Shown one piece after another: positions 7,496-29,664 of a DNA stretch of 43,959 bases. The stretch is from Muribaculaceae bacterium (GTDB taxonomy: Bacteria > Bacteroidota > Bacteroidia > Bacteroidales > Muribaculaceae). The translations under genes and the position numbers were made by a program. Under the pieces are notes generated by a model. The model was given only the letters and a program-made list of their open reading frames with translations, was not told the origin of the DNA and did no database searches. The stretch lies in contig JAGAYZ010000019.1 of assembly GCA_017940245.1 (NCBI GenBank), positions 1 to 43,959 of the forward strand, read 5' to 3'. Each line of letters starts with the position of its first letter. Position 1 is the first letter of the stretch.

Positions 7496-8197
7496 TTACT
7501 TCACAACCTTAGCAGTGCTCTGAGTGCCATCGGCATACTTGGTAACCACGATGTTCACACCCTGGAAAGCAGTGTCGCTCACCATACCGGCAGCGTTCAT
7601 GTACTTCACGCTGGCAACAGTCTTGGCAGCATTCACATCGCTAACTGCAGTGCTGGGATCCTCGGGAATATTAATCTTTGCAGCGCAAAGCTTCACGCGC
7701 TCCTCGGAAGTACCTACTAAGTAATCGACATTTTCATAGTCTGTATACTTGCAATATACTTTAAATTCATAATCGCCATTAGCAGCACCTTCTTTGGCTT
7801 TCACATTAAGTACAACAATTTCGCCACCAGGGTTTTCAACTTTACCATTATTAACACCAAAATAAATATAATCAGGCCAGTTTTCTGCATTATTGCAGTT
7901 GTCGCTCCAAGCAACAGTAGGGGTATTTTGACGGCCAGTGGTTACGATATCGGCACCACCATATTGATAAGTTCCATACTCATCCAATGCAGGCTCAAAT
8001 GCCTCTGGATAAGTAAGTTCAATCTGAACGTTAGTAAAGTTTCCACCTTCGGGAAGAGTCAGAGTAAGGGGCATTTCAATAAGCTGGCCAATCTGATCCT
8101 TGCTTGTAATTTCAATGTCAGGAGTGGTCAGTGTCTGTGCACTTGCACCGAGAGCTACGAATGCAGCTGCTGCAAGAAGTAAAGATTTCATCTTCAT
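7496..8197 (-). CDS. secreted protein with cohesin-like domain and C-terminal sorting-like tail
   Basis: 233 residues. A signal peptide (residues 1-20, cleavage near GASAQ) is followed by one beta-rich domain of about 150 residues. Its strand pattern (LIEMPLTLTLP, VQIELTYPEAFEP, DIVTTG, YIYFGVNN, EIVVLNVKAKEGAANGDYEF) resembles cohesin/carbohydrate-binding-2 folds. The last 50 residues (from AVSDVNAAKTVASVKY to STAKVVK) match a short tail common on secreted proteins of Prevotella and Muribaculaceae and thought to be a variant sorting domain. Two dockerin proteins are encoded 18-22 kb away. The gene stands alone, ending at a strong bidirectional terminator. The cohesin call is based on pattern only; another immunoglobulin-like adhesin domain is possible. 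Confidence 0.6.
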   Translation of the reverse strand: MKMKSLLLAAAAFVALGASAQTLTTPDIEITSKDQIGQLIEMPLTLTLPEGGNFTNVQIELTYPEAFEPALDEYGTYQYGGADIVTTGRQNTPTVAWSDNCNNAENWPDYIYFGVNNGKVENPGGEIVVLNVKAKEGAANGDYEFKVYCKYTDYENVDYLVGTSEERVKLCAAKINIPEDPSTAVSDVNAAKTVASVKYMNAAGMVSDTAFQGVNIVVTKYADGTQSTAKVVK

Positions 8198-8497
8198 AAT
8201 TTAAAAATTTTTAAATTGTTAATGATTTTGAATTGTTTATTAATTAATAGTCCGTTATTTCTTTTTAGTAGGCTTTGGTCATGATGCACTTTCATCTTAT
8301 TATCGGCTGTCTTTTAGCACATTAACCAATTAAAAGTGCAATTTTCCTCCACTTTCACCTGCAATATTACAAACAATTTTTTATTTGACAAAAAAAAATC
8401 AATATTTTCGCAACATTTTTTTGCTAATACTACGATTTTCCGTCAAACTGCTCATTATTTGAACTTGCTTCGGTCTATCTGTTACTTAATTCACAGC
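8198..8497. other. AT-rich intergenic region
   Basis: About 300 bases, very AT-rich compared with the neighbouring genes. It should hold the promoter and leader of the cohesin-like gene (minus strand) and the 3' end of the DUF3127 transcript. The 15 bases before the ATG at 8197 are almost all A and T, as is usual for Bacteroidetes start sites. I could not find a full TTTG/TAnnTTTG pair, a structured RNA or a small gene here. Confidence 0.5.
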
Positions 8498-8932
8498 CTA
8501 GAACGGGATATCATCGGTGTCGCCTATTCCTAAAGCGCCAAAGTCGCCAGGTGCGGGAGGTACAGGCATTTGCGGAGCGCCAGGGATGGGGTTAACCACG
8601 GGCTGCTGAGCTGCGGGAGCCTGCGACATGGGAGCTGCAGCTGCAGGTTGTGCTGCGGGATTGTAGGGCTCAGCCTTCCAACCACGTATATCGGTATACC
8701 AGCGACCATTGAACTCGCGGCTTTCGATGTCGAAACTCAGCGTGATCGTGTTTCCCACCTCGCAGAACGCGTCATACTGGTTGATGCGGTCACCAAAGAA
8801 GTCAAACGCCACTTTCTTGGGGTAGGCCTCCATCGTTTCCAGGATATAAACCTGCTTGCTCCAAGCATTGCCGGCTTTTGACGTACCCGACTGCAGAGGT
8901 AACTTCTGTATAATCTTTCCTTGAACTTCCAT
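8498..8932 (-). CDS. DUF3127 protein, SSB-like OB fold with acidic C-terminal tip
   Basis: 144 residues from the ATG at 8932. A longer reading to 9064 is unlikely because the promoter lies inside it at 8963-8993. Residues 1-90 (MEVQGKIIQKLP, SGTSKAGNAWSKQ, then FFGDRI..YDAF..GNTITLSFDIESREFNGRWYTDI) match the Bacteroidetes DUF3127 domain, an OB-fold relative of single-stranded DNA-binding proteins. A disordered linker rich in Pro, Ala and Gln leads to the C-terminus GDTDDIPF. That ending matches the SSB tip that recruits RecQ, PriA, the polymerase chi subunit and other partners. It diverges from rsfS with back-to-back promoters. The exact role is unknown; an accessory SSB is the likeliest reading. 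Confidence 0.85.
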   Translation of the reverse strand: MEVQGKIIQKLPLQSGTSKAGNAWSKQVYILETMEAYPKKVAFDFFGDRINQYDAFCEVGNTITLSFDIESREFNGRWYTDIRGWKAEPYNPAAQPAAAAPMSQAPAAQQPVVNPIPGAPQMPVPPAPGDFGALGIGDTDDIPF

Positions 8933-8962
8933 AATGTTTTCCTTATCGTTAAAAATCGACCA

Positions 8963-8993
8963 CAAAATTACGAATTCTCGGTCAAACAGCAAA
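8963..8993 (-). promoter_or_regulatory. promoter of the DUF3127 gene
   Basis: On the minus strand, TTTG (8993-8990), 19 bases, then TAATTTTG (8970-8963). Transcription would start near 8958, about 25 bases before the ATG at 8932. This supports the shorter gene start. Confidence 0.7.
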
Positions 8994-9021
8994 ATATTTT
9001 TTTCAATTAAAAATTTCGTGT

Positions 9022-9029
9022 TATCTTTG
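9022..9029 (+). promoter_or_regulatory. -7 element of the rsfS-ftsH operon
   Basis: TATCTTTG matches TAnnTTTG. The expected TTTG 20 bases upstream is degenerate (a T-run at 8997-9003). The start would be near 9033, with a leader of about 55 bases. Confidence 0.55.
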
Positions 9030-9088
9030 CATCGTGGGGAGAAAACGACTCCCGCATCGCACACATTTTAAATATAATATACAATATA

Positions 9089-9448
9089 ATGACCGAAAAC
9101 GAAACACTAGTAAAAGCAATTATCGAAGGAGCCCAGGAGAAAAAGGGACGAAGCATCACACACGTCGATTTGAGCGGCATCGAGACGGCTGCCACACAGG
9201 GATTTGTCATCGTCAATGGCAACACCCCCATTCAGGTGGATGCCATTGCCGACAGCATTCGTGAATACGTCGAAAAGACCACCGGCATACGCCCATTCAA
9301 CTACGACGGCTACCAAAACTCGCAATGGATTGTGATTGACTACGGCTATATCTTTGTGCATGTGTTCCTGCCCGACTACCGCGAGCGCTACAACCTGGAG
9401 GAACTCTGGGCCGATGCCGTCATCACTTCCGTGCCCGACCTGGACTGA
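9089..9448 (+). CDS. rsfS: ribosome silencing factor RsfS
   Basis: 119 residues of the RsfS/Iojap family, which binds ribosomal protein uL14 on the 50S subunit and blocks joining of the 30S subunit when nutrients are short. Family features are visible: VDLSGIETAATQGFVIVNGNT in the first half, then WIVIDYGYIFVHVFLPDYRERYNLEELWADA, the conserved C-terminal core. It lies 24 bases upstream of ftsH in the same direction, a gene order often seen in Bacteroidetes. Confidence 0.94.
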   Translation: MTENETLVKAIIEGAQEKKGRSITHVDLSGIETAATQGFVIVNGNTPIQVDAIADSIREYVEKTTGIRPFNYDGYQNSQWIVIDYGYIFVHVFLPDYRERYNLEELWADAVITSVPDLD

Positions 9449-9472
9449 ACATCAATGTAAAAGACATGACTA

Positions 9473-11479
9473 ATGGCTGACAATAATAAAAATAAAGGAT
9501 TCAAGCTGAATCTGTACTGGATGTACGCAATCATCGTGGGCGCACTGGTGGCCACGTTCTGGTTCACCGATAATGCCGCGACCAAGACCATGAGCATGAC
9601 CGAGTTTGAGAAAACGGTCAAAAGTGGCGGTGTGACCAAAATCATTGTCTACACCAACAGCAACGAAGCCGAAGCCGTGCTCACCGACTCACTGGCTCGC
9701 GTCGTGTTCAAAGCACAGAACTACGAGCCACAGCGCGGCATGCAGGCCAAAGTAAAGACCGACATTCCATCGAGCGACAAGTTCACCGAGATGATTGAGA
9801 CTTGGAAACAAGAAGGTGTGTTCCATGGCGAGGTGAGCTACGAAAAAGGAAGCGACTACGGGTCGTGGATTTGGTCGTTCGGCCCCATCATTTTGCTGGT
9901 CGTGTTCTGGGTGCTCATCATGAAGCGCATGGGCAACGGCGGCATGGGCGGCGGTGGCATCTTCAACGTGGGCAAGTCGCGTGCCATGCTATTTGACAAG
10001 GATAATTCCACCAAGGTCACCTTTGAAGACGTGGCCGGCCTGGCCGAGGCCAAGGTGGAAATCGCCGAGATTGTCGATTTCCTCAAGAATCCCGGCCACT
10101 ACACCGAGTTAGGCGGAAAAATACCCAAAGGCGCGTTGCTGGTGGGGCCTCCAGGAACAGGAAAAACACTGCTGGCCAAGGCTGTAGCCGGCGAAGCCAA
10201 CGTGCCGTTCTTCTCCATGTCGGGTTCCGACTTCGTGGAAATGTTCGTCGGTGTGGGTGCAAGCCGCGTACGCGACTTGTTCCGCCAGGCCAAGGAGAAG
10301 GCTCCCTGCATCGTGTTTATCGACGAGATTGATGCCGTGGGACGCGCCCGCGGCAAGAATGCCAGCATGGGAGGCAACGACGAGCGAGAGAATACACTCA
10401 ACCAGTTGCTCACCGAGATGGACGGATTCGGCAGCAACAGCGGTGTGATTATCCTGGCCGCCACCAACCGTGCCGACATTCTGGACAAGGCACTGCTGCG
10501 TGCCGGACGATTCGACCGTCAAATCTATGTGGAACTGCCCGAATTGAGCGACCGCAAAGAAATATTCCAAGTGCATCTGCGCAATGTGAAGACCGACGGC
10601 AGCGTAGACATTGACCTGCTCTCGCGACAGACTCCGGGCTTCTCGGGAGCCGATATTGCCAACGTGTGCAACGAGGCGGCACTTATCGCCGCGCGACGCA
10701 AAAAACAAGCCGTGCAGCGACAAGACTTCATGGATGCCATAGACCGCATCATAGGCGGATTGGAAAAGAAATCAAAAGTCATCACCGAAGACGAGCGGCG
10801 CTCCATCGCCGTGCACGAAGCCGGACACGCCACCGTGAGCTGGCATCTGCAGTATGCCGACCCGCTCATCAAGGTCACCATCGTGCCTCGCGGCAAGGCT
10901 CTGGGTGCCGCATGGTATATGCCCGAAGAACGCCAAATCGAGCCTAAGCAGGCATTGCTCGACAAGATGTGCTCGCTGCTGGCAGGACGCATGGCCGAAG
11001 AGATGTTCTTGGGATTTATCGACACCGGAGCCCTCAACGACCTGGAGCGCGCCACCAAGATGGCCTATGCCATGGTCACCTACTACGGCATGAGCGACAA
11101 GTTGCCCAACATCTCCTACTACGACTCGTCGGGCCAGGCCTATGGATTCACAAAACCCTACAGCGAAGACCGCGCCAAGGCCATCGACGACGAGGTGCAG
11201 GCCATCATCAACAGCCAGTACCTGCGTGCACGACAGATTCTGGAACAATACCAGCGTGGACATCACGAACTGGCCGACCTCCTGGTGCAGCGAGAGGTGA
11301 TTTACACCGAAGATGCCGAGCGCATCTTCGGCAAACGCCAGTGGCTCTCACGCACCGACGAAATCATCAAAGCCAACGAAGAGGCCAAGCGTGCCCGCGG
11401 CGAAGTGCAGGCCGACGACACCGACAATGACACCGACCCGCAGCCCGAAGGCACAACACCTCCACCCTTTAATCAGTAA
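9473..11479 (+). CDS. ftsH: ATP-dependent zinc metalloprotease FtsH
   Basis: 668-residue inner-membrane AAA+ protease that extracts and degrades misfolded or regulatory membrane and cytosolic proteins. Two membrane segments (about 13-32 and 132-150) flank a periplasmic domain. The AAA module has GPPGTGKT (about 224-231), FIDEIDAVG (Walker B), and the second region of homology [20 protein letters not shown]. The zinc site HEAGH is at about 448-452, with the third ligand Asp in ALNDLERAT. The C-terminal tail (about 40 residues) is acidic and Pro-rich. It is co-transcribed with rsfS and with a TerB-like gene that starts 5 bases downstream. Confidence 0.97.
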
Positions 11480-11484
11480 GCGAC

Positions 11485-11838
11485 ATGGCAGAAAGCATCA
11501 CCTACTCCAGCCGACAGAAAGAGGCACTCGTGTCGCTCATCATCGAGATGATTAACTGCGACCGCAACATCACGCTCGAAGAGCTGCACACCTCCAATGT
11601 CATTAATGCCGAGCTGGGCATCACCGACGACATCTTCCGTGTGGGGCTGGCACTAGACGCACGCTATGCGCTGCAAATAGTCAAGGAGATGACCGACGAG
11701 CAGAAACTATACACCGGCCTGCTGCTCACGCGCATCATTGATGCCGATGGCAAAGTGGAAGACGATGAAATCCAGTTACTCAACCACATCTGCAAGGAAA
11801 CGGGCATCGATGTCCTGCTCGCTGGAATAAAAGATTAA
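11485..11838 (+). CDS. TerB-like helical protein of unknown role
   Basis: 117 residues, predicted all-helical. The C-terminal half has the pattern of TerB/TerB-like domains (ADGKVEDDEIQLLNHICKETGID), where acidic residues in a helix-loop-helix may bind metal. There is no signal peptide or membrane segment, so it is cytosolic. It starts 5 bases after the ftsH stop and 30 bases before a lipoprotein gene, so it probably belongs to the ftsH operon. I cannot assign a function; TerB-like domains occur in stress and envelope-associated proteins. Confidence 0.6.
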   Translation: MAESITYSSRQKEALVSLIIEMINCDRNITLEELHTSNVINAELGITDDIFRVGLALDARYALQIVKEMTDEQKLYTGLLLTRIIDADGKVEDDEIQLLNHICKETGIDVLLAGIKD

Positions 11839-11868
11839 TCCACTTATTATCCATTAACTAATAAACTA

Positions 11869-12936
11869 ATGGCAATGAAACATTTAGCACCTTTGGCACT
11901 GATGCTTGTCATGATGGCAGCATGCGGCTCGGCCACCGCCGGCGACTCGGCATCGTCGGCCAGCAACAAAACATTTGCTTTTCTGCGAGAACTGGGCCTG
12001 AATGTGGATCAAATCACACAGTTCAATAACGATGGTCCCATCTGTTTTGACAGTATTGTTGAGCTCAACAAGGAGCAAGAAGAAGAGTTGCTCAAGAAAG
12101 TGGGTGATCCTTTCCGCATGGAAGATGGCGAGATCGAAGGCTCATTCTCACTGTTGGGCATTCGCGCCTTGCCGGCTGGCTACACTTTGATTTTATATAG
12201 CGTGGAATTTGGCGATGGCTCCAGTAGAATCTTCGCCATATACGACAGTGAGGGCAACACCACCGACTACCTGGACACCGGCTACTGGACCGACCAGCAC
12301 GGCATCGAAGCCAGCGACGACTACACCACAGGTGAGTCGTACGGCGATAACACCCAGTGCGTCTTCGACTCGCCCACAACCATGAAACTGGAGCGCAAAT
12401 TCAACCGCTACTCGTGGAAAAGCGACAAAGAGAACTACGAGCAGGAAATGATCAAGGAATTTTGGAAAATCGAGAAAGAATACCTCTACCGCATCACCGA
12501 CAAGGGTACATTTGAATTGGCCGACATCAAAACCCGCCAGTCGGGTCCTGTAGAGCCGGAGATGGCACTGCTGGAAGAAATCAGCGACATGAGCTATTAC
12601 ACCGGCATTTCGGCGCTCGACCACCTGAATGAACTGGCACTGCGACCCGACGTGAAACAGGCTGCTGCCGCACCCGAGGGACAGGCCTCCTACCGCCTGC
12701 AAGGCATCGTGGAAGAGTGGTACCGCACCAAGCCAGAGCAGTTGCTTGAATGGATGAGCCAACACCGCGACTTGAGCAAAAACGCAGTGACAGGCATTCT
12801 GGAACAGTGTTTCTCTACCGGATGGATTAGCAAGGAATCACTCATCAAAATCATCGACAACATGCCCGATGGCGAAACCAAAAAGTATATCGAAGACCTC
12901 ACAGCGCAATGGGGACCGGCCGATGCCGTGGGATGA
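11869..12936 (+). CDS. hypothetical lipoprotein, first of a tandem paralogous pair
   Basis: 355 residues. A signal peptide ends in the lipobox-like MMAAC near residue 19, so the protein is probably lipid-anchored in the envelope. A second ATG at 11875 (MKHL) gives an equally plausible start. After the linker it reads FLRELGLNVDQI, then a central domain with IYDSEGNTTDYLDTGYW and a helical C-terminal region. The next gene encodes a protein of similar length with the same order of motifs (FLRDLGINPDSL; VTYDGDGIATDYLSLG), so the two look like duplicates that have diverged strongly. It follows the TerB-like gene closely and may be part of the ftsH operon. No known domain was recognised. Confidence 0.75.
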   Translation: MAMKHLAPLALMLVMMAACGSATAGDSASSASNKTFAFLRELGLNVDQITQFNNDGPICFDSIVELNKEQEEELLKKVGDPFRMEDGEIEGSFSLLGIRALPAGYTLILYSVEFGDGSSRIFAIYDSEGNTTDYLDTGYWTDQHGIEASDDYTTGESYGDNTQCVFDSPTTMKLERKFNRYSWKSDKENYEQEMIKEFWKIEKEYLYRITDKGTFELADIKTRQSGPVEPEMALLEEISDMSYYTGISALDHLNELALRPDVKQAAAAPEGQASYRLQGIVEEWYRTKPEQLLEWMSQHRDLSKNAVTGILEQCFSTGWISKESLIKIIDNMPDGETKKYIEDLTAQWGPADAVG

Positions 12937-12951
12937 TAAAAGCCTTTTGTA

Positions 12952-13938
12952 ATGAAAATCAAGATTTTTATGGGCATCGTTGTTGCCTTGCTGGTTCTCA
13001 CCGCCTGCACAGGTAGAGGCAACAACGATAGCAACGACCGCACGCACCAGCCCAAGCACGCCCATGAGCTGCGTTTTCTACGTGATTTGGGCATCAACCC
13101 CGACTCATTGCTTGCCGGCGACCGGTGGGTCATGCCCGAGGGCGATGATTGGGAAACCACCCACAACAGGTGGCTCAACATGACTCAGATAACCAGCCTG
13201 GGGCTCGACCAGCTGTGTGATGCAGACACATCCATGTCGCCTATCACGCTACAGGCCGTATATCCCATCGACGAGCGCCTCACCTTGCTCATCTTGCATC
13301 AGTATCTGGGCGACTCGGCTCCAGTGCGCATAGTGACCTACGATGGCGACGGCATTGCCACCGACTACTTGAGCCTGGGCACCTGTCAAGGCGTGAACAC
13401 CATCTACTGGAACGACGGCAAGCACGCCGCAGCAGTGGAAACAGCCTCCATCACCTTCGCCGGTCGCAACATGACCGTGGAGCGGCAGTTGCAGATGCGC
13501 TCGGCGCAGCACGACGTGCTTTGGACCGCCACCGGCAGCGATTCCTACGAGATAGACTCACGCGGATACGTGCTGCACCGTGATGCAAAATCTGATTTGA
13601 GTGAGATGACCGACGACATGCGAGCACACCGATTGCTGGAAGCCGCCGGATGGTACTCCATACAAGACGAGCAGGCCATGGATGCGTTGAGCTCTTGCGC
13701 CGGCGACCCCGGCACTGCAGCATCTACCCTGGGCATTGCCGTGTGGCAACGGCTTCTCAGCTCGCCCTGGACCACAGCGCACTGGCTCTACACACATCAA
13801 GACAGCCCACTGGTGCCCATGCTGGCCAGGGAATCAAAAAGTGTCGTTGATGGCAATGACCTCAAACGACACACACTGGAGGCCGTACACGACCCCGACC
13901 AAAAGTCTTTTATGAAAAAAATTCTGCTCGACAAGTAG
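12952..13938 (+). CDS. hypothetical lipoprotein, second of a tandem paralogous pair
   Basis: 328 residues with a signal peptide and a clear lipobox (LVLTAC, Cys at about 20), followed by a short Gly/Asn/Asp linker typical of surface or periplasmic lipoproteins. Motif order parallels the upstream lipoprotein: a FLRDLGINPDSL segment, a beta-rich middle with DGDGIATDYLSLG, and a helical C-terminus. It begins 15 bases after the previous stop, so the two are co-transcribed. It ends 8 bases before the convergent small membrane protein gene. Function unknown. Confidence 0.75.
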   Translation: MKIKIFMGIVVALLVLTACTGRGNNDSNDRTHQPKHAHELRFLRDLGINPDSLLAGDRWVMPEGDDWETTHNRWLNMTQITSLGLDQLCDADTSMSPITLQAVYPIDERLTLLILHQYLGDSAPVRIVTYDGDGIATDYLSLGTCQGVNTIYWNDGKHAAAVETASITFAGRNMTVERQLQMRSAQHDVLWTATGSDSYEIDSRGYVLHRDAKSDLSEMTDDMRAHRLLEAAGWYSIQDEQAMDALSSCAGDPGTAASTLGIAVWQRLLSSPWTTAHWLYTHQDSPLVPMLARESKSVVDGNDLKRHTLEAVHDPDQKSFMKKILLDK

Positions 13939-13946
13939 CCTCACAT

Positions 13947-14258
13947 TCATTCACGCTGCATGGCGACAGCAATGGATTGCCACAGCAGCACCAGCGACAC
14001 GGCCACCATAGCGGCATATTCGGCAAGGTCGCGCACCGTGAGCACGGTGAGGTCATGGCTATCGATCAACCACCACCAGCACAAGCCACAAATGATTGCG
14101 GCCACGGCGCAGATGCCCCACCACACCCAGCGCAGCGATTGGCTGCGCTCGGGCAGTCGGTTCAGTACGCGCGGCGTGAACCAGCGGTTGTCGTGCGTTT
14201 GGTACCCCTGCTCCTTGAGCAACGCCCCTAACTTGATATCGTCTTCGTTTCGTTCCAT
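13947..14258 (-). CDS. small two-helix membrane protein downstream of the ECF sigma factor
   Basis: 103 residues. An N-terminal soluble segment of about 43 residues (DDIKLGALLKEQGYQ, then WFTPRVLNRLPER) precedes two hydrophobic helices (about 44-65 and 79-97). It starts 3 bases after the sigma factor stop. This position and topology are common for Bacteroidetes proteins that accompany ECF sigma factors, and it may act as a membrane anti-sigma factor. No ZAS/zinc motif (HxxxCxxC) is present, so that role is inference. Confidence 0.65.
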   Translation of the reverse strand: MERNEDDIKLGALLKEQGYQTHDNRWFTPRVLNRLPERSQSLRWVWWGICAVAAIICGLCWWWLIDSHDLTVLTVRDLAEYAAMVAVSLVLLWQSIAVAMQRE

Positions 14259-14261
14259 CGT

Positions 14262-14798
14262 TTACTCGTTTTTTAGAAATTGTGCCATGTGTGCCTTTGC
14301 ACGATGTATATGACTCTTGACTGTGCCCTCGGGCAACTGCATGATGCGGGCCACTCGCTTGATGGGCTGATCTTCGATATAGAACAGAGTCACAGCGGTG
14401 CGCTCATCGTCGGTCAGGTGCCGCATGGCTTCCCGCACCGTTAATCCCGTGTCCCACCTGTCGCCATCTTCCTCGCTCGCTCCCAGGGCACCAGGGGCAA
14501 GGTCGCCTTCCAGTGGTGACTCATGCCTGCGACGGGTGTGAGTGTAAAACTCGTTATAGCCTATGCGATAGAGCCATGTAGCAAACCCCGCAATCCCCTT
14601 AAAGGCACGCAGATTCAAGTATGCCTTGATAAAAGTTTCCTGCGCCAAGTCGTCGCTCAGGGCAGCATCGCCCAGCGTAAGATTGAGAAAAAAGCGGCGC
14701 AATCGCGGCTGATAAGCCTCGACGAGCTGGCCGAATGCTTGCCGGTCGTCGGCAAGCACACAGCGTGTGATGAGAGCCAGTTCGTCGAGTTTTTTCAT
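14262..14798 (-). CDS. ECF-family RNA polymerase sigma factor
   Basis: 178 residues from the ATG at 14798, chosen over a TTG at 14813 because an AAGG lies just upstream of the ATG. Region 2 includes FGQLVEAYQPRLRRFFLNL and the -10 recognition helix with DDLAQETFIKAYLNL. Region 4 contains MRHLTDDERTAVTLFYIEDQPIKRVARIM, then LPEGTVKSHIHRAKA, the helix-turn-helix for -35 binding. It directs RNA polymerase to a small regulon, probably including its own operon. It lies between a DUF6249 membrane protein and a small membrane protein that may regulate it. Confidence 0.93.
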   Translation of the reverse strand: MKKLDELALITRCVLADDRQAFGQLVEAYQPRLRRFFLNLTLGDAALSDDLAQETFIKAYLNLRAFKGIAGFATWLYRIGYNEFYTHTRRRHESPLEGDLAPGALGASEEDGDRWDTGLTVREAMRHLTDDERTAVTLFYIEDQPIKRVARIMQLPEGTVKSHIHRAKAHMAQFLKNE

Positions 14799-14819
14799 CG
14801 CAGGTACCTTCAATTGAGA

Positions 14820-15710: not shown

Positions 15711-15778
15711 ATCGGTCAATTTTATTATATTTCACAATTTCGCCGCTCTTGCAGCAGCGTTTCATGCATTAGACGCAA

Positions 15779-16288: not shown

Positions 16289-16293
16289 CTTTT

Positions 16294-20209: not shown

Positions 20210-21241
20210 CTAGCGCATGATTTCGCGCAGATTGGTGGTGACGTTGAGCATGAGTGTTGTGGCTCCTGTGTGGGGTTGCGCAAAGGCAACGCCAAAACCG
20301 AACGCCTTGACCTTAATGCCGGCTCCCACCGAAAAACCCGAAAGAAAACTGCGCTGATAAGACGACATGTCGGTGCGCGTCTTGTAGTTATATCCTAGTG
20401 CAATATAGGTGTTCTTGTTAGGCAAGAACTCCAGTCCCAGCACCAAGTGGCGCATGAGATTGCTGCCGAATCCGTTCTTTTTAATCAGAACCGATTCGGC
20501 ATTGTTTTTGTCGGCAGGCACATAATAGGGCAGATACCACTTGGTGAGATGGTGTGCCGTGAGCGATGCACGGAACGGGGTGCCGTTGATGTGCTTGGTC
20601 ACTCCCAGCAGCACATCCACGGGCAACTTGTCGCGATGGTCGGCAAACTTTTTGATTTGTCCGCCCAGATTGGTCACCACCAAAGATGCCGAGATGTCGT
20701 AGACCGGGTCGTAATAGTTCACACCAATATCCACGCCCAGCGCTCCGGCAGTGTAGTCTTCATATTTAGAATAAAGATACTTGGCCGTGATGCCGCCACG
20801 AAAAAACTCGCTGATGTCGTGACTGTAGGTAAAGCCCACAGCTATATCGCTGGCGCTGAACGACCCGGTTTTTACACCGGTGATGTCATAGCCTTCCATG
20901 GAACCATAGCCAAAGTACTGGATGCCGGCCGACCAAGCCCCATGCTCACCCGATTTGTGGGCAAACCGCGCTCCGGCAAAGTTGCTGCCTCCCAAGTAAC
21001 GCATGTAATTCAGGCCTATCTGCCTGTCGTTCTCCGGTCCCAGCAGAGCCGGATTCTGGGTGGTGAGGTTTATGTCGTCGTCAATCACCGACACATTGCA
21101 GCCTCCCAGGGCGTAGGCGTGGGCCGACGGAGTTACGTTCAAGAAATTGTAGGCCTTGGTGCCGTCTTGCGCCGCAACTGCAGGTGCCAGCAGAGCGATG
21201 ATGAATAATAGGATATATGTGGTAAGCCTGTTCACTGTCAT
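20210..21241 (-). CDS. porQ: type IX secretion system protein PorQ
   Basis: 343-residue outer-membrane beta-barrel of the type IX secretion system; in Porphyromonas gingivalis PorQ works with PorU, PorV and PorZ in the attachment complex that cleaves sorting signals and fixes cargo to A-LPS. A signal peptide (1-24) is followed by YNFLNVTPSAHAYALGG, IDDDINLTTQNPALLGPE, LNYMRYLGG, YNYKTRTDMSSYQRSFLSGFS and AQPHTGATTLMLNV, all typical of the PorQ family, and the length is normal. It supports the view that this organism sorts proteins with C-terminal tails such as those encoded at 7496-8197 and 37944-39221. Confidence 0.93.
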   Translation of the reverse strand: MTVNRLTTYILLFIIALLAPAVAAQDGTKAYNFLNVTPSAHAYALGGCNVSVIDDDINLTTQNPALLGPENDRQIGLNYMRYLGGSNFAGARFAHKSGEHGAWSAGIQYFGYGSMEGYDITGVKTGSFSASDIAVGFTYSHDISEFFRGGITAKYLYSKYEDYTAGALGVDIGVNYYDPVYDISASLVVTNLGGQIKKFADHRDKLPVDVLLGVTKHINGTPFRASLTAHHLTKWYLPYYVPADKNNAESVLIKKNGFGSNLMRHLVLGLEFLPNKNTYIALGYNYKTRTDMSSYQRSFLSGFSVGAGIKVKAFGFGVAFAQPHTGATTLMLNVTTNLREIMR

Positions 21242-21381
21242 GACTATATGGGATTGTTATTACAAATAACGCACGAGCCAGCCATTCTAGTATAATCGTT
21301 TACAATTTTTTTTAACTGAAGCATGAAATCGTAAAAATAGATGAAACATTATTAATCATTTACAAATATAAATGCGTTTTT

Positions 21382-21412: not shown

Positions 21413-21435
21413 CGGCAAGTATTGAAATTAGTGCT

Positions 21436-22405: not shown

Positions 22406-23229
22406 GTGGCAAGAAGGATTAAGTCCAATGGAGCCGTCAAGGCCTGGTCGCCCAGCCGCATGGCTGCGGCAGGATAAATGGCTGGCATTACATATCGCAC
22501 ATACTTACGCAGCAATGGTGCCATTTCGTCCTTGAGCTGCTTGTCGCCGGTGAGTTGGATTTCGTCGGTGAGTGGGTCCAGATCAAAGCTATTCCACGTG
22601 TGCAACGCGAGAAAAGCGGCATCGGTAGCATTGCGCAAGGGGAAACTATTGGCCAGCAACGTGTCGCCTTTACGATAGACCACCATGTCCATGTAGTCTT
22701 GATGCAAGTTGATAAACATGCGTGATATGCCCGAACCGTCATTCAGCCGCTTGAAATGTTCACACAAAGGATAGAGATGGTGCACCACCGGAGCCGTGCT
22801 GAACGTGCGCTGCAAAAAACTATACATGCCGCGTGGCAAGCCATAGGTCACTGCCACACCGCATTGCGGCAGCGAGCAGCTGAGCACGTCACAATCATCG
22901 GCAGGATACATGGTGGTGAAAACCTGCTCGGCCTGTTCTTCATCTTGGGCCACAGCCGGCGGAACTACCACAAAATGAGGGGCGGCAGCCACAATGTCCA
23001 CGCGACCGTAATCGTCAAGCAAAACAGGATTATCATACACTGCGTTCTCTAGAGCCGCAATCCAGCTGGTGGCAGGTTTGAGGGGTATTTCGCGAGCGAT
23101 GAGCGAGTTTTCCTGAGCCGGCGTGAAGAGAATAAATTGCAGGCGACGCTCACCCACGGCAAGCATGAGCGTCCACAATTCGGGACGCTTGACCGTGATG
23201 TCGTCAGTGACAGTGGATAGGTTGCTCAT
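22393..23229 (-). CDS. DUF3822 family protein
   Basis: 278 residues from the ATG at 23229, chosen because the 26 extra residues of the longer frame are not family sequence. DUF3822 proteins of Bacteroidetes are predicted to have an actin/hexokinase-like ATPase fold and are encoded directly before rsmD, as here. Visible segments include LWTLMLAVGERRLQFILF near the start, FINLHQDYMDMVVYRKGDTLLANSF in the second half and the C-terminal LPLRKY-like region (LLRKYVRYVMP). No catalytic role is known. Confidence 0.85.
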   Translation of the reverse strand: MSNLSTVTDDITVKRPELWTLMLAVGERRLQFILFTPAQENSLIAREIPLKPATSWIAALENAVYDNPVLLDDYGRVDIVAAAPHFVVVPPAVAQDEEQAEQVFTTMYPADDCDVLSCSLPQCGVAVTYGLPRGMYSFLQRTFSTAPVVHHLYPLCEHFKRLNDGSGISRMFINLHQDYMDMVVYRKGDTLLANSFPLRNATDAAFLALHTWNSFDLDPLTDEIQLTGDKQLKDEMAPLLRKYVRYVMPAIYPAAAMRLGDQALTAPLDLILLATCES

Positions 23230-23292
23230 AGGTGATAACTTTGCTGCAAAGGTAGTGATTTTTGACGTACTGATGAAAAAAAGCGCCAAAAA

Positions 23293-23324
23293 GATGCTCG
23301 CTGACACACAATACAGCGAGCATC
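23293..23324 (-). terminator. intrinsic terminator of glnN
   Basis: A perfect 11-base-pair stem (GATGCTCGCTG and its complement) with a 10-base loop, 28 bases past the glnN stop. On the minus strand it is followed by TTTTTGG and then a T7 run. Confidence 0.85.
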
Positions 23325-23351
23325 CCTATTTATAAACTGAGCGTGAAACAA

Positions 23352-25553
23352 TCAGCGTATAAATAATAATTCGCGGTATTTGGGGAGCGGCCAGCAACTG
23401 TCGTCCACAATGAGTTCCAGTTTGTCAATCTGGTAGCGAATATCGTCCAGCCTCGATGCCACCATATCATGATAGGCTATGGCTCTTTCTCGCTGGTCGT
23501 CGATGACGTTTGCTCGCTTGCGTGCCTCTATGAGTTCTCTGACCTGTTGCTCTATCGTGGCCGTGCGCTGCGCGATTTCCTCAATGAGCATGATATTGCG
23601 CGCCGACAACATCCCGGCTTTGTCCATGGAGAAGATGGCGGCCATATCTTTCACATTATTCAGCAACTGAGCCTGATAGCGCGTAGCTACAGGAATAATG
23701 TGATTCATCGACAGGTCACCCAGCACGCGGGCTTCGATTTGCACCCTTTTAGTGTAGGTTTCCCACTTCACCTCGTTGCGAGCGATGAGTTCTTTGCGGG
23801 TCATCACTCCCATGGTTTCAAACATAGTGATGCTGCTCTCATCGAGATACCGCTCAAAAATCCTGGGACACGAGGTCTCGGTGTCCAGTCCCCGCTGGGC
23901 AGCCTCTCGCGCCCATTGGTCGGTGTAGCTGTTGCCGTCGAAGCGGATGTTCCGGCACGCCTTGATGTCGTCGCGCAGTACCTCGATGATGGCACGCAGT
24001 GTGGCATCGCTGTGCCAATCATCGGCGGCTATGCGCGCATCTACACGCTCCTTAAACCGGACCAAAGCCTCGGCCACAGCAGTGTTCAACGCAATCATTG
24101 CGCAAGCACAGTTGGCTTCGGCCCCCACTGCGCGGAACTCAAATCGGTTGCCGGTGAAAGCAAAGGGCGAGGTGCGGTTGCGGTCGGTATTGTCGATGAG
24201 CAACTCGGGAATTTCAGGAATGTCCAGCTTTAGGCCTTGCTTGCCTGCCATGACCAGCAACTCATCGTTGCCGGCACTCTCGATGCGGTCGAGCAGCTGC
24301 GAGAGTGGCTTGCCCAAGAACGCTGAGATAATAGCCGGTGGGGCCTCGTTGCCACCAAGTCGCAACGCGTTTGACGCACTCATGATTGAGGCTTTGAGCA
24401 GGCCATTGTGACGATAGACGGCCATGAGCGTTTCCACGATGAAGACCGCAAACCGCAAGTTTTGCTGGGGTGTTTTACCTGGAGCATGAAGCAGCACACC
24501 ATTATCGGTCGACAGGCTCCAATTGTTGTGCTTGCCGCTGCCATTGACTCCGGCAAAAGGCTTTTCATGCAGCAAGACACGGAATCCATGTTTGCGCGCC
24601 ACACGGCGCATCACCGACATGAGCAACATGTTGTGGTCTACGGCCAGATTGGTTTCTTCGAAGATGGGAGCCAGTTCAAACTGGTTGGGGGCAACCTCGT
24701 TATGACGTGTCTTGCAAGGTATTCCCAGCTCGAGCGCCACAATTTCCAGTTCTTTCATGAATGCGGCCACTCGCTCGGGAATACTACCAAAGTAGTGATC
24801 GTCCATCTGTTGATTTTTGGCTGAGTCATGCCCCATCAGGGTGCGCCCGGTGAGCAACAGGTCGGGGCGAGCGGCATACAGCCCCTCGTCTACCAAAAAA
24901 TATTCTTGCTCCCACCCCAGATTGGAAGTCACCTTCTTCACTGCGGGATCGAAGTAATGACACACGTCGGTAGCGGCCACATTGATGGCATGCAGTGCCT
25001 TGAGCAATGGTGCTTTGTAGTCGAGCGACTCGCCGCTGAATGAGATAAACACGGTGGGGATGCACAGGGTGTCGTCGATGATGAACACCGGCGACGTGGG
25101 ATCCCAGGCCGAGTAGCCACGCGCCTCAAAAGTGGAGCGGATTCCTCCCGACGGGAACGATGACGCATCGGGCTCTTGCTGAACAAGCAATTTTCCGCTA
25201 AATTCCTCCACAACGCCACCATTACCGTCAAACTCGATAAAGGCATCGTGCTTCTCGGCAGTGCCCTCGGTAAGCGGCTGGAACCAGTGTGTGTAGTGAG
25301 TGACACCTTGCTCGGTAGCCCACTGCTTCATGCCTTGAGCCACAGCATCGGCCACCGTGCGGTCGAGCCGGGATCCACCCAGCATCACATCCATCATCTG
25401 GTCGTAAACATCGGCCGGAAGATAGAGACGCATTTTCTCGCGTGTAAACACTTTGCAACCGAAGTAACTTGCCGGCGACTGAGCCGGCACATTTACGTGG
25501 AGAGGCTTTTTCTTAAACGCCTCACCCACGACTTGAAATCGTAGATTGTTCAT
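23352..25553 (-). CDS. glnN: glutamine synthetase type III (GlnN)
   Basis: 733-residue cytosolic enzyme that makes glutamine from glutamate, ammonia and ATP, the main ammonia-assimilating glutamine synthetase of Bacteroides and Prevotella. The length is normal for GSIII, much longer than GSI (about 470). Catalytic motifs are LGWEQEYFLVD, RHNEVAPNQFELAP and GVNGSGKHNNWSLSTD, followed by NRTSPFAFTGNRFEFRAVG. The helical C-terminal extension after about residue 600 is characteristic. It has a clear terminator downstream, and a strong hairpin lies between it and the upstream dockerin gene only 24 bases before its ATG. Confidence 0.97.
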   Translation of the reverse strand: MNNLRFQVVGEAFKKKPLHVNVPAQSPASYFGCKVFTREKMRLYLPADVYDQMMDVMLGGSRLDRTVADAVAQGMKQWATEQGVTHYTHWFQPLTEGTAEKHDAFIEFDGNGGVVEEFSGKLLVQQEPDASSFPSGGIRSTFEARGYSAWDPTSPVFIIDDTLCIPTVFISFSGESLDYKAPLLKALHAINVAATDVCHYFDPAVKKVTSNLGWEQEYFLVDEGLYAARPDLLLTGRTLMGHDSAKNQQMDDHYFGSIPERVAAFMKELEIVALELGIPCKTRHNEVAPNQFELAPIFEETNLAVDHNMLLMSVMRRVARKHGFRVLLHEKPFAGVNGSGKHNNWSLSTDNGVLLHAPGKTPQQNLRFAVFIVETLMAVYRHNGLLKASIMSASNALRLGGNEAPPAIISAFLGKPLSQLLDRIESAGNDELLVMAGKQGLKLDIPEIPELLIDNTDRNRTSPFAFTGNRFEFRAVGAEANCACAMIALNTAVAEALVRFKERVDARIAADDWHSDATLRAIIEVLRDDIKACRNIRFDGNSYTDQWAREAAQRGLDTETSCPRIFERYLDESSITMFETMGVMTRKELIARNEVKWETYTKRVQIEARVLGDLSMNHIIPVATRYQAQLLNNVKDMAAIFSMDKAGMLSARNIMLIEEIAQRTATIEQQVRELIEARKRANVIDDQRERAIAYHDMVASRLDDIRYQIDKLELIVDDSCWPLPKYRELLFIR

Positions 25554-25577
25554 AAATCATTTAGTCTATAAAAAGGA

Positions 25578-25635
25578 ATGATGCCAAAATCCGGAATCTA
25601 CCATGCGGGTTAGCCATTCAGGATTTTGGCATCAT
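25578..25635 (-). terminator. 15-bp hairpin between the dockerin glycosidase gene and glnN
   Basis: Perfect inverted repeat: ATGATGCCAAAATCC and its complement (25578-25592 and 25621-25635) with a 28-base loop. On the minus strand it is followed by TTCCTTTTTATAG, so it looks like the terminator of the dockerin gene that ends at 25692. However, only 24 bases remain before the glnN ATG and they hold no TAnnTTTG, so glnN transcripts probably begin upstream and carry this hairpin in their leader. It may therefore act as an attenuator. Confidence 0.7.
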
Positions 25636-25691
25636 GATAGTAATCATCAATTATAGAAGAGTCCTGTCCATTACCATGAAACGGAACCCGC

Positions 25692-28094
25692 CTACAATTT
25701 CAGGATGATGTTGATGATGGCGTTCACATCTTCCACATCCACGCGTCCGTCGCCTGTAATATCACTTGTTGCCCGCAACTCGTCACTTGCAGCCAAGCCC
25801 AGGATGATGTTGATGACGCCATTCACATCCTCCACATCCACGCGCCCGTCGCCATTCACGTCACCTCCCACCACAGGGGTTCGCGCAACACCGGCATAAA
25901 TGGTTTCGAGCCTGGAGAAGACGAGATAAAGATTCTGGCCGGCACCGATAGAAGTCATGCCCACGTCTATGCTGGCAAGCGTAACGGGGTAGTTACTCAC
26001 TTCACCGGGATTCATCCACTGCGCCATGGGCAGGTCTATGACCAGGTCTTGCTCTGGAGCAATCACGGGTGGCACTACCGTAGCATAGGTAATGCGGTTA
26101 TTTCCGGCATACAGACCAAACTGCAGCTGCTTGACTGGAGCTGTGCCGGGGTTGAAGTGCAAGCGCAAGGTGTCGGGCATGCTCCAGAAGCGCAATTCCT
26201 TTTCGAGCAGGATGCGAGGTAACCGGCCCGAGGCCGAGGTGTAGTCCCAACGCAGTCCGCCGCCCTCAAGCTCGGTTGCATGGCCACCATTGCCCACGCG
26301 CTGACTGATGGTCCAAGTCGCAGGATTGAAATCATCGGCCAGCATCACGCGAGATACTGGAATTTCCACCTTTACCATGAGGGTATCGGCCACCTGGCCT
26401 AGACGGCCTATCACCATTGCCTCGCCATCGCGCAGCCCACGCAGCGTGCCCGTGTGCTCGTCCACCACGACCACGTCGGGTGCCTCGCTATGCCAGGTGA
26501 GAGCATTGGCACCGATTGGCATCACATGGTCGTTGATTGTGGTTTGCACCTGCACGGTATAGTCGCGCAAGCCGTCGTTAACAATCTGCTTGTGCGTGAT
26601 CTCAATGTCATCTACGGCATTGCTCACCACCACGGGCATCGTCACCGTGGCATCGCCCAGCGTGGCCGTCAGCGCCTGTACGCCGATTCCGGTGACAAAG
26701 AGCGTGGAGTCGTTAACAATCTGGCCCAGCGACTCGGGGCATGAGAGCACCACACCTTTGACATCGGTATCAACAAGCATGCCATACTGGTTATATCCAT
26801 AAAAATGCGGAGTGAACACACCATATTGCGGCAGATTCAGACTAAAATCCTGAAAACGGATAGCAGCCACCACATCGTCGTCGGGCGCACTGCTCACACA
26901 GTAGAACGCATTGCCGTCGGCACGCTCGTTGCCGTCGCTTGGGCGGTTGCGGGTGCCCAAAGTGCTGGTGTAGAGAATCGACGAGCCGCCACCGTCCAGG
27001 TTCATGGCATCGGTGGCACCGGCATATTTCATGATGGCGGCCAGCGCACTGGTGCGCACACCATTAGAGATGGGTGAGCGACCATCCACCACGCAGAAAT
27101 ACACCTTGTCGCCACCGTCACTGTAACCGATGCCGGTGCGCGGGTGCAACTGGTTGGCATCGCCACGGTCGCCCTCGCTGTTAAGAATCTCTCCATCGGC
27201 CAGAATTTTGGGATTCCCCGACACCACCTGGTCAGGCACCACACTCTGGTCGCCGCACGTCCACGTTGCATCCACCTGAATCACATCGCCCTCCTTGAGG
27301 CCCTGGACAAACTCGGCCGCCGAGCCATGCCCGTGAATCACGTAGGCACCGTCGGGGATAGTCATGTCGCCTGCGGTGCTGGGTGTGCCGGTAATGACCA
27401 TGTGGAAAGTTCCCGCCGTCTTGAACGTCTCGCCTGGTGCCACAGTGGCGGTCACCTCACAACCACTGAACTCGTTGGTGCTGCCATAATAAAGGTAGTT
27501 GTAGATGGTAATGGCGTTGCTGTTGTTGCCGGCTTCATTGTTGATGTCACCCAGCGCCGCGGTATCTCCGTCGGGTGACGTAATGGTGCCACTGTAACGG
27601 AAAGGATTGATGTAGAGCGCGCCTGTCTCGTCGACGATAAAGTTTTTGTAGGCCGTTGTGTTGTAACGGGTGCGATATATTTCGCCATCACACACGGTGG
27701 AACCCACCGGCGACCCCACCACCGAAACACCCCTCGCAGTAGTGCCCGCCGTAGCAAAGAAGTCACCGTTAATGCCCACGAAATATCGCCGACCCGGCTG
27801 GCTCTTGCGCTTGGCCATGCTGGAAATGGTCTCATTGCCGGCCAATTTGTCGCGCGCGCTCACTCCATGCAGCGAGATGTAGGGATTGGTCATGTCCATC
27901 GTGGAATAGAACACCCGCAGGTGGTGTAGGTCGTTGTGGAGCCATAGCGAGGTCTGCATGGTACCGGGTCCCACCTGATTATGGAACAGCGTGTCTACCG
28001 TGTAGGTCTCACCATTGAGCACGATGTTGCCACTAGCCATTGCATTGCCCATCGTGGTGCCCGCCAACAAAAGTGTGAGTAAAAAGTTTTTCAT
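25692..28094 (-). CDS. secreted phosphodiester glycosidase (NAGPA/DUF2233-like) with C-terminal dockerin
   Basis: 800 residues from the ATG at 28094, which begins the signal peptide (MKNFLLTLLLAG, cleaved near MASGN). The N-terminal half is a phosphodiester glycosidase domain: VGINGDFF (about 105), HPRTGIGYSDGG (about 317), VVDGR, and MNLDGGGSS (about 364-372), which in human NAGPA and the Bacteroides DUF2233 structure form the active centre that removes N-acetylglucosamine from phosphodiesters. The middle has bacterial Ig-like modules. The last 65 residues are a type I dockerin with two calcium loops (DVNGDGRVDVEDVN and DITGDGRVDVEDVN), each followed by an INIIL helix. It follows another dockerin gene on the same strand, downstream of the Sus genes. 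The substrate is unknown. Confidence 0.88.
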   Translation of the reverse strand: MKNFLLTLLLAGTTMGNAMASGNIVLNGETYTVDTLFHNQVGPGTMQTSLWLHNDLHHLRVFYSTMDMTNPYISLHGVSARDKLAGNETISSMAKRKSQPGRRYFVGINGDFFATAGTTARGVSVVGSPVGSTVCDGEIYRTRYNTTAYKNFIVDETGALYINPFRYSGTITSPDGDTAALGDINNEAGNNSNAITIYNYLYYGSTNEFSGCEVTATVAPGETFKTAGTFHMVITGTPSTAGDMTIPDGAYVIHGHGSAAEFVQGLKEGDVIQVDATWTCGDQSVVPDQVVSGNPKILADGEILNSEGDRGDANQLHPRTGIGYSDGGDKVYFCVVDGRSPISNGVRTSALAAIMKYAGATDAMNLDGGGSSILYTSTLGTRNRPSDGNERADGNAFYCVSSAPDDDVVAAIRFQDFSLNLPQYGVFTPHFYGYNQYGMLVDTDVKGVVLSCPESLGQIVNDSTLFVTGIGVQALTATLGDATVTMPVVVSNAVDDIEITHKQIVNDGLRDYTVQVQTTINDHVMPIGANALTWHSEAPDVVVVDEHTGTLRGLRDGEAMVIGRLGQVADTLMVKVEIPVSRVMLADDFNPATWTISQRVGNGGHATELEGGGLRWDYTSASGRLPRILLEKELRFWSMPDTLRLHFNPGTAPVKQLQFGLYAGNNRITYATVVPPVIAPEQDLVIDLPMAQWMNPGEVSNYPVTLASIDVGMTSIGAGQNLYLVFSRLETIYAGVARTPVVGGDVNGDGRVDVEDVNGVINIILGLAASDELRATSDITGDGRVDVEDVNAIINIILKL

Positions 28095-28116
28095 AACACG
28101 TGTAATTAAATGGTGA

Positions 28117-28150
28117 AGGATGGTGTAAAGCGGCCACTTCACACCATCCT
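28117..28150 (-). terminator. hairpin between the two dockerin genes
   Basis: A 10-base-pair stem (AGGATGGTGT and its complement), one mismatch, three further pairs and a 6-base loop. No strong T-run follows on the minus strand, so it may be a partial terminator or a processing or stability element between the genes. Confidence 0.5.
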
Positions 28151-28191
28151 ACAGAATCTTCAATCTAAGGCATCGGCCTGGGTAATGCCTG

Positions 28192-29664
28192 TTAAACCTT
28201 GAGAATGATATTGATGATGGCGTTCACGTCTTCGACATCCACCTTGCCGTCGCCGGTCACGTCGGCTTTGCCCGGATAATCGCCGGCCTGCTTGGTCTTG
28301 AGGATGATGTTGATCACGGCGTTCACGTCTTCTACGTCAATCTTGCCGTCGCCAGTCACGTCGCCCTTTTGGTAAGTGGGCTCTTGGCCTCCATAAGGCT
28401 TCACATTCTTGCCCATGCGGTAGATACCGAAACCATTCTGGCATTTGTAGGTGAGAATGGTCACATATTCGTTACCATCTTCGTCTACACCAGGGATGGC
28501 CTCAAGGCTGTGGATGCGGATACCACCATCGGTGGTATGACCCAGTGAGTCGGCGGGAATCTGCCAATATTTTTCCATGGAACTGAGTTCCAGGTCGGCA
28601 TTCAGTTCCACAATGTTGGCCTGGCAGCCATGTCCGTCGCCCAGATATTGCTTCATGGAATAGAGCATGAAGTTGCGCCCGTCGAGATGGAACTCGGTCA
28701 AGCCATTGGTTCCGGCTTCGGGCTGGAGTTCCCAGTTCTCCACAGCGTTGAAGGAGTCCCACATGTCACCGTTAACCATATACAAAGCCGGTGCGCTGAA
28801 GAAACCATCAATCCAGAACAGGTCGCCCAGGTAGTAAGTGTCGGGGTCGCTTTCATCGGCACCGAGACACATCTTCACAAAAGGAGCATATCCCCAACTG
28901 GCCACTTCCTCGCTATTGGTACCATTGGCAGCACTCCATCCTCGCGGGAACTGAGTGATTTGAATGTGGTAGTCGGTGCCATCGAATCCGGGCTCCCAAT
29001 CGCTGCCTTGTTCGGCATGCCAGCGATAGATGAGGTCGCTGCTGGCACCGGCACCCATCACATTGCACTGAGCCTCCTCGCGCGTGATGTCGCCCATCAC
29101 GTCGATGTAGTCAATGCGTGCGCACACTTCCTCTTGCGTTTTGGCCTTGATGAGTTCGCCCACCGAGGTGAGCGCGCCAGTCTGGGCATCTACTTGATAG
29201 AGGTGGAATGAGCGTGTTGACTCGCTGGTATACTGTGCCAGCCACAGGTGGCCGAAGTGGTCCACACCGATGTTGTTGGCCAGCAGTGAGGACTGAGCGG
29301 TGCTTGCATAAGGCTCACCATTCAGCGTGAGGGGAGTTGCTCCCAGGTATTCGCCCGTTTTCACATCATAACGGAAGAGCACACACTGCATCTCGGTAGT
29401 TGTATCGTTGATTTGGTGTGTGTACAGTGGCGAGCACGTCTGCGCAATAAGCACCTCACCATTGTAGATAGTGGCTCGGCGGGCATAGTTGTTGGCAAAC
29501 GGGAGCGCATTGTACTCAAGTTCACCGGTGTGAACGCGCGAGATGATCCAGTCATTGACCAGTTTGTAATCGCCTACGGGCTCGTAGGTCTGGCCATCGG
29601 TGCCGGCCATCATTGAGGAGATGGCGAGCAACCCTGTTGCTAGAGTGAGTAAAATTTTTTTCAT
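28192..29664 (-). CDS. secreted dockerin protein with a predicted beta-propeller-like region
   Basis: 490 residues. A signal peptide (1-20) is followed by about 400 residues of repeating beta-strand segments with aromatic and Asp residues, such as GVDHFGHLWLAQYTSE, LYQVDAQTGALTSVGE and LFWIDGFFSAPALYMVNGD, which look like propeller blades but are too divergent for a family call. The C-terminal 60 residues form a type I dockerin with two loops (DVTGDGKIDVEDVN and DVTGDGKVDVEDVN) and INIIL helices. It has no lipobox and no type IX tail, so it would be held on the cell only through the dockerin. It follows the PKD lipoprotein of the Sus locus on the same strand. Confidence 0.8.
   Translation of the reverse strand: MKKILLTLATGLLAISSMMAGTDGQTYEPVGDYKLVNDWIISRVHTGELEYNALPFANNYARRATIYNGEVLIAQTCSPLYTHQINDTTTEMQCVLFRYDVKTGEYLGATPLTLNGEPYASTAQSSLLANNIGVDHFGHLWLAQYTSESTRSFHLYQVDAQTGALTSVGELIKAKTQEEVCARIDYIDVMGDITREEAQCNVMGAGASSDLIYRWHAEQGSDWEPGFDGTDYHIQITQFPRGWSAANGTNSEEVASWGYAPFVKMCLGADESDPDTYYLGDLFWIDGFFSAPALYMVNGDMWDSFNAVENWELQPEAGTNGLTEFHLDGRNFMLYSMKQYLGDGHGCQANIVELNADLELSSMEKYWQIPADSLGHTTDGGIRIHSLEAIPGVDEDGNEYVTILTYKCQNGFGIYRMGKNVKPYGGQEPTYQKGDVTGDGKIDVEDVNAVINIILKTKQAGDYPGKADVTGDGKVDVEDVNAIINIILKV

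Follow-up and report, generated by a model that had tools for sequence, protein, structure and literature searches.

A probable cohesin-dockerin system with mixed cargo in a genus of rumen Muribaculaceae

A stretch of 43,959 nucleotides from a Muribaculaceae genome (contig JAGAYZ010000019.1, assembly GCA_017940245.1), hereafter the window, encodes two secreted proteins that end in dockerins, P0002 and P0003, and a small secreted protein with a cohesin-like domain, P0001. The locus thus raises the question whether this bacterium holds secreted proteins together by cohesin-dockerin docking, and which proteins would serve as sockets. The window belongs to a 2.70 Mb assembly of 104 contigs that is 80.5% complete, and our family survey covered 99 Muribaculaceae genomes, 6 of them in its own genus. 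The dockerins, the cohesin-like places, the multi-cohesin proteins, the docking face and the co-occurrence of both domains together give good sequence support to a predicted cohesin-dockerin system in this lineage, and it is probably a real system of this kind with a mixed cargo. We prefer the reading, and consider it moderately likely, that such docking holds together a large part of the secretome in this genus of rumen Muribaculaceae.

All four genes singled out by an earlier note on this DNA (P0001, P0002, P0003 and porQ) are open frames at their coordinates, every one on the minus strand. The two dockerin proteins and their dockerins are:

28192-29664, minus strand: P0003, 490 amino acids, with a signal peptide, a region without a family over cut-off and a C-terminal dockerin (Dockerin_1, 38.3 bits, E 1.5e-9).
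28201-28368, minus strand: dockerin of P0003 (PF00404, 42.7 bits in the genome search).
25692-28142, minus strand: P0002, 816 amino acids, with a signal peptide, a NAGPA phosphodiester glycosidase domain (1.4e-29), a sub-threshold Big_2 match and a C-terminal dockerin (Dockerin_1, 34.1 bits, E 3.1e-8).
25701-25865, minus strand: dockerin of P0002 (PF00404, 39 bits in the genome search).

Both dockerins comprise two loops followed by INIIL-type helices and exceed the PF00404 (Dockerin_1) cut-off of 22.9 bits. The ATG before the P0002 signal peptide lies at 28094 (frame 25692-28094), and a GTG extends the frame to 28142. Reading of the translations and a crude signal-peptide script revealed neither a lipobox nor a sorting tail in P0002 and P0003, which agrees with the initial description of two secreted proteins that end in two-loop type I dockerins and have no other anchor.

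A search of the whole genome for both kinds of domain, as the earlier note had proposed, found them in number: at least 141 dockerin matches, 14 places of a cohesin family that we term B-type (two of them short) and five clear places of a second family, termed A-type, which includes the P0001 domain. The dockerin count refers to PF00404 at a threshold of E <= 0.001 and to the 150 candidates that were scored out of 232; one match falls short of the family cut-off, two contain an internal stop and a few share a frame with another match. The dockerin proteins were sampled from 472,002 bases around part of the dockerin places, the window included, yielding 100 dockerins in 99 proteins. Most of the sampled dockerins (87 of 100) end within 10 residues of the C-terminus. 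By a crude script for signal peptides and lipoboxes, a plain signal peptide is present in 85 proteins and a possible lipobox in 5; in 3 more the signal peptide lies in a frame truncated on the 5' side, and 6 have none (5 of these cut). Pfam analysis of the 99 proteins in sets of 50 and 49, counted over the 25 most frequent of 51 and the 25 most frequent of 47 families, gave Dockerin_1 (90), LRR_5 (23), Peptidase_M6 (7), Peptidase_C10 (4), CotH (3), FGE-sulfatase (3), NAGPA (2), alpha-amylase (2) and single GH30, GH53 and other matches. Among these listed families the cargo is a mixed secretome in which leucine-rich repeat (LRR) proteins, peptidases and unassigned proteins predominate and some glycosidases occur.

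We then compared the residues on the predicted docking face. The pattern used to extract the repeats prescribes the calcium positions and puts a loose constraint on position 8, so that all of these are uninformative on conservation, and it leaves positions 10, 14, 17 and 18 free. At these four positions, which we take to be the exposed, cohesin-contacting ones of type I dockerins, first repeats (n = 83) and second repeats (n = 100) are nearly invariant, with V10 in 100 and 98%, N14 in 100 and 99%, I17 in 98 and 93% and N18 in 100 and 98%, respectively. Position 10 uses all four valine codons, synonymous codons vary at the invariant positions, and distinct DNA sequences number 80 among the 83 first and 100 among the 100 second repeats. 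Because codons and DNA vary, the near-invariance points to selection and not to recent copying; recent duplication as the cause of the uniformity was rejected in view of the codon variety.

When six genomes of the genus were compared, positions 10, 11, 14, 17 and 18 showed an identity of 0.73 within and 0.37 between genomes, against 0.67 and 0.56 at the core positions and 0.43 and 0.30 at the other positions. This comparison comprised 81 dockerins of the own genome and 53 from the five others, the latter being 60 stretches from the highest-scoring matches minus three without a readable pair and four in cohesin proteins, which left G138 with three; inclusion of those four gave 0.73 and 0.36 for the docking positions. 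The six genomes fall into two broad codes, N14/I17 in four and T14/Y17 in two. The predicted recognition residues thus hardly vary within a genome yet differ from one species to another, a pattern that a shared partner would lead one to expect. Dominance of a single dockerin type in the sampled proteins would also suit calcium-stabilised C-terminal caps that arose by recent duplication and have no partner, an explanation that we regard as highly improbable given the variety of repeat DNAs and synonymous codons and given predicted docking positions that are more genome-specific than the core.

The B-type family comprises 18 domains from several genomes, seven of which match Pfam Cohesin at E <= 0.1 (best 1.8e-8). 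Its best PDB matches are four NagJ entries (E 0.0025-0.008), presumably representing the cohesin module of that protein, followed by one scaffoldin chain and one chain of an anchoring protein (E 0.02 and 0.09). One place in the own genome, 17705-18094 of contig C23, exceeds the PF00963 (Cohesin) cut-off (26.6 vs 24.1 bits). Four of the five clear A-type places lie at contig ends, and three further weak ones fall on B-type places. The P0001-like genes on contigs C72, C50, C97 and C84 are cut at contig ends, and the cohesin count of the own genome is therefore a lower bound.

P0001 itself is composed of:

7496-8197, minus strand: P0001, 233 amino acids, with a signal peptide, an A-type cohesin-like domain and a sorting-like C-terminal tail (A-type profile, which includes P0001, 198.6 bits).
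7664-8137, minus strand: A-type cohesin-like domain, residues 21-178 (hhalign of A-type vs B-type family, 95.8% over 108 columns).
7499-7660, minus strand: sorting-like tail, residues 180-233 (C-terminal in many proteins of the own genome; hhalign vs own TIGR04183 matches).

In single-sequence searches P0001 gave nothing over cut-off in Pfam and no match in NCBIfam or the PDB, and a PDB search with the A-type profile returned unrelated weak matches only (best E 0.3). Since it stays below the PF00963 cut-off, we call the domain cohesin-like and not cohesin. Profile-profile comparison of the A-type with the B-type family yielded an hhalign value of 96.4%, and 95.8% over 108 columns after bridging rows had been dropped; controls against Big_2 and C-terminal domain (CTD) profiles ranged from 0.2 to 4%, the A-type itself giving 0.2% (Big_2) and 0.8% (CTD). 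A scan of genome contigs with P0001 alone found no relative, and a scan with six close rows found two loci, both on one contig of a goat-rumen Muribaculaceae metagenome-assembled genome (MAG).

The tail of P0001 is shared more widely. At E <= 1 the own genome holds 43 matches to P0001, 38 of which cover the C-terminal part only, and the tail aligns with 10 TIGR04183 matches of the own genome (9 over cut-off) at an hhalign value of 76.2% (E 2.2e-5, 43 columns; controls 0.3-0.4%). TIGR04183 itself gave no match on the P0001 protein at E <= 1. In the own genome it has 18 matches at E <= 0.1, 10 of them over cut-off, and none of the 18 lies at the P0001 locus; two that fall in cohesin proteins on C23 stay below the cut-off (19.1 and 15.3 bits). 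The suggestion that P0001 joins a cohesin-like domain to a sorting-like tail is supported by profile-profile comparison with clean controls, the tail as a putative sorting domain, and not at the level of the Pfam cohesin and TIGR04183 cut-offs.

The cohesin-like domains occur in varied architectures, here abbreviated CohA and CohB for the two types and Doc for dockerin. The own genome encodes CohA-tail (2), CohB-tail (2), CohB-CohB-Doc, CohB-Doc (2) and Doc-CohB (2), three CohB in one frame of 761 amino acids, and fragments or single domains. A frame of 919 amino acids in the sister genome G119 combines six CohB with a dockerin, and other relatives encode CohB-Doc-CohB, CohB-CohB-Doc and further arrangements. 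Multi-cohesin scaffoldins are thus present, with up to three B-type domains per protein in the own genome and six in G119. CohA-tail recurs in G004, G007, G013 and G021, all of the same genus. In two further frames (L094, own contig C84, 419 amino acids; L099, contig C90 of G004, 759 amino acids) an A-type domain is accompanied by dockerin-like repeats and, by reading, a formylglycine-generating-enzyme-like domain.

Six hand-picked cohesin proteins from five genomes contain a second class of dockerin, located between domains in five of them and near the C-terminus in one (G099). This class is 0.21 identical to the terminal dockerins of its own genome and 0.51 among genomes, against 0.36 for the terminal dockerins. 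The second-class proteins of G033 and G138 (L213) also end in a terminal dockerin.

Whether the A-type belongs among the sockets can be asked separately. B-type domains could bind the dockerins while P0001 and its A-type relatives are a divergent beta-sandwich with another role. The A-type is restricted to 4 of the 99 family genomes, all of its own genus, its PDB and Pfam cohesin searches found no match, and in several proteins it stands directly before a dockerin, a position that we take to resemble that of an X-module. On the other side stand the profile-profile match to the B-type family with its clean controls, and the stand-alone A-type domain with tail, an architecture that four more genomes of the genus share and that would suit an anchor with one cohesin. 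Weighing both, we view a non-socket A-type as possible if rather doubtful.

Across the 99 family genomes, dockerins and cohesins tend to occur together: a dockerin is present in 38 genomes, a B-type cohesin in 27 and the two together in 22, while 56 lack either (Fisher p 1e-7), and the association persists when the own genus is left out (p 1e-5). If Pfam Cohesin (E <= 0.01) is used in place of the B-type profile, 20 genomes are positive, 13 genomes being over cut-off, and dockerins occur in 17 of the 20 (p 2.6e-6). Each of the six genus genomes contains at least 58 dockerins in this survey. Of the 16 genomes with dockerins only, 15 have one dockerin each, the sixteenth being G061.

In the reading that we prefer, about 100 or more secreted proteins, P0002 and P0003 included, would carry one uniform C-terminal dockerin, and the cohesin-like proteins would be the sockets for it. 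Sockets with a sorting-like tail, comprising the single-socket P0001 type and larger cohesin proteins, would be anchored on the surface by the type IX secretion system (T9SS), and cohesin proteins with one to six cohesins that end in a dockerin may act as adaptors. Calcium-dependent binding, a surface location and binding of the same dockerins by the P0001 domain are predictions from sequence. Cohesin-dockerin assembly with type IX-anchored sockets appears the most economical account of the observations. A bolder version, in which dockerin proteins bind tailed cohesin proteins already in the periplasm and are co-exported and surface-anchored with them, few carriers serving a hundred-protein secretome under a species-private docking code, strikes us as speculative and quite improbable. 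The window contains one component of the T9SS:

20210-21241, minus strand: PorQ of the type IX secretion system (NF033711 equivalog, 378.9 bits vs a cut-off of 220 bits).

This identifies the porQ gene as noted before. The T9SS marker SprA is present in 97 of the 99 family genomes, with or without dockerins, so the T9SS is a family background without a specific link to dockerins, and PorQ or SprA as a specific connection to the docking system was discarded. We know of no T9SS tail in the cellulosomes of Ruminococcus.

A number of observations weigh against docking as we propose it. By its own sequence the P0001 domain is weak: PF00963 gives no match at E <= 1, P0001 alone scores 9.5 bits on a strict B-type profile, on which the top-scoring decoy out of 1000 shuffled sequences reaches 5.4 bits, a value that four of 20 A-type domains do not exceed. 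P0001 is separated by about 17 kb from the nearer dockerin gene and by 24 kb from the SusCD pair and stands outside the Sus gene series; with the genes so far apart, the original proposal, in which P0002 and P0003 would be held near this pair by P0001 itself, is not supported. In most sampled dockerin proteins the crude script detected no known signal for export across the outer membrane, and the original proposal offers no route by which they would cross it. SprA was not found in a search of the own genome, perhaps because the assembly is 80% complete. Regarding co-occurrence, the B-type profile was seeded from the own genus, the tests ignore phylogeny, many cohesins share a protein with a dockerin, and Pfam Cohesin is positive in three of the six genus genomes.

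To these is added the absence of a clean two-class rule for the dockerins of cohesin proteins. Two dockerins that precede a cohesin (own contig C23, frame of 701 amino acids; G154, L215) group with the cargo (0.84 and 0.70). Where cohesin proteins end in a dockerin, that dockerin is most like the cargo of its own genome in four of five genomes (6 proteins), a likeness that is narrow in G119 (0.66 vs 0.59) and reversed in G138 (0.57 vs 0.64). Since these dockerins resemble cargo, there is no clear sign of a layered specificity from anchor through adaptor to cargo, and the idea that cohesin proteins of this build bear a separate dockerin class did not hold up. The main counter-example is G061 (genus g26), in which 31 dockerins are accompanied by no A-type, B-type or Pfam cohesin match; it would have either a hidden cohesin or another receptor. 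The G061 dockerins that were read (L182, L183) carry another code, e.g. DGNDVSILLEMVL.

The case of G061 would also be expected if the C-terminal dockerin were itself a sorting or export signal, or were read by an unrelated receptor, the cohesin-like domains then being non-binding surface beta-sandwich modules. The mostly C-terminal position and the uniformity of the dockerins fit such a tag, dockerin proteins need some route over the outer membrane, and dockerin and sorting tail did not coincide in the sample: a profile of the P0001 tail found 15 proteins in the same 472,002 bases, none of them among the 99 dockerin proteins. The dockerin profile is, however, unrelated to the tail or CTD profile (hhalign 0.5 and 0.1%), dockerins co-occur with cohesins, and a second dockerin class between or beside cohesins is not needed for a C-terminal tag. 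We therefore judge the tag explanation unlikely and retain cohesin-dockerin docking as the favoured account.

Upstream of the dockerin genes, the window contains a Sus series with the same-strand order SusC, SusD, lipoprotein-like gene, PKD-domain gene, P0003, P0002, the last two carrying the dockerins; the series may form one operon. Its first four genes are:

34491-37580, minus strand: SusC/RagA family TonB-linked receptor, first gene of the series (TIGR04056, 622.5 bits).
32564-34603, minus strand: SusD-like protein (PF12771, 8.8e-21).
31471-32532, minus strand: lipoprotein-like gene, by reading (without Pfam or NCBIfam match).
29752-31458, minus strand: PKD-domain gene, lipoprotein-like by reading (PF18911, 4e-12).

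At 37944-39221 on the minus strand lies a gene for a secreted protein of 425 amino acids, the C-terminus of which resembles a type IX sorting domain by eye; TIGR04183 gave no match to it at E <= 1. The neighbours of P0001 are a group II intron and genes reading as ssb and ftsH, the ssb reading being without an NCBIfam match. The intron, just downstream of P0001, looks complete (5576-7358, minus strand), with RNA matches at 7186-7358, 7081-7166 and 5576-5661 and a reverse transcriptase/maturase at 5661-6941.

How does this compare with known systems? Non-cellulosomal cohesin- and dockerin-like modules are reportedly the subject, by title, of a 2009 study by Peer and colleagues. The label cellulosome-like, applied to this locus before, suits the architecture, with its multi-cohesin proteins and dockerin cargo, and apparently not the contents: among the listed families, LRR proteins, peptidases and unassigned proteins prevail and glycosidases are few. 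The listings from searches of open-access literature, a scope that leaves most subscription journals outside, name no such system in Muribaculaceae.

For Candidatus Stygibacter (Cloacimonadota), a cellulosome-like, CTD-anchored complex has been proposed, inferred from MAGs (PMC8542988). C-terminal dockerins on secreted peptidases and glycosidases are common to both systems, whereas Ca. Stygibacter belongs to another phylum, has one scaffoldin of 3,755 amino acids with carbohydrate-binding modules in place of many smaller cohesin proteins, and is described with five named dockerin-bearing proteins against at least 141 dockerin matches here (PMC8542988). Large numbers of dockerins per genome also occur in Ruminococcus flavefaciens strains, with 53-223, and the cellulosomes of R. 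flavefaciens and R. champanellensis likewise have several scaffoldins, most of those in R. champanellensis with their own dockerin (PMC8865330). In contrast, these species are Firmicutes, and more than half of the carbohydrate-active enzymes of R. champanellensis carry dockerins, compared with the mixed cargo of the present genome (PMC8865330).

Among Bacteroidetes, rumen bins with dockerins have been reported, including bin 136 with five dockerins and one cohesin gene, which is among the bins with tandem cohesins, and the discussion of that study refers to Bacteroidetes as known to use cellulosomes (PMC6071333). Unlike the genome studied here, those bins have at most 11 dockerins each in its Table 1, and a sorting tail and an analysis of recognition residues are absent from the parts covered (PMC6071333). 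The role of dockerins in polysaccharide utilization loci of rumen Bacteroidetes was described as not yet defined (PMC7480376), and dockerins without a cohesin were reported in a few cockroach Bacteroidales (PMC10266427).

Now that a single genus is seen to have a cohesin family, proteins with several cohesins and dockerins with a uniform docking face, the question of what these dockerins do becomes one of a direct binding test. If the proposed docking is true, an assembly strategy best known from the cellulosomes of Firmicutes would also organise a mixed secretome, rich in peptidases and LRR proteins, in Gram-negative bacteria of the gut. The type IX system would probably be the anchor, and the genus would offer a set of species-specific docking pairs.

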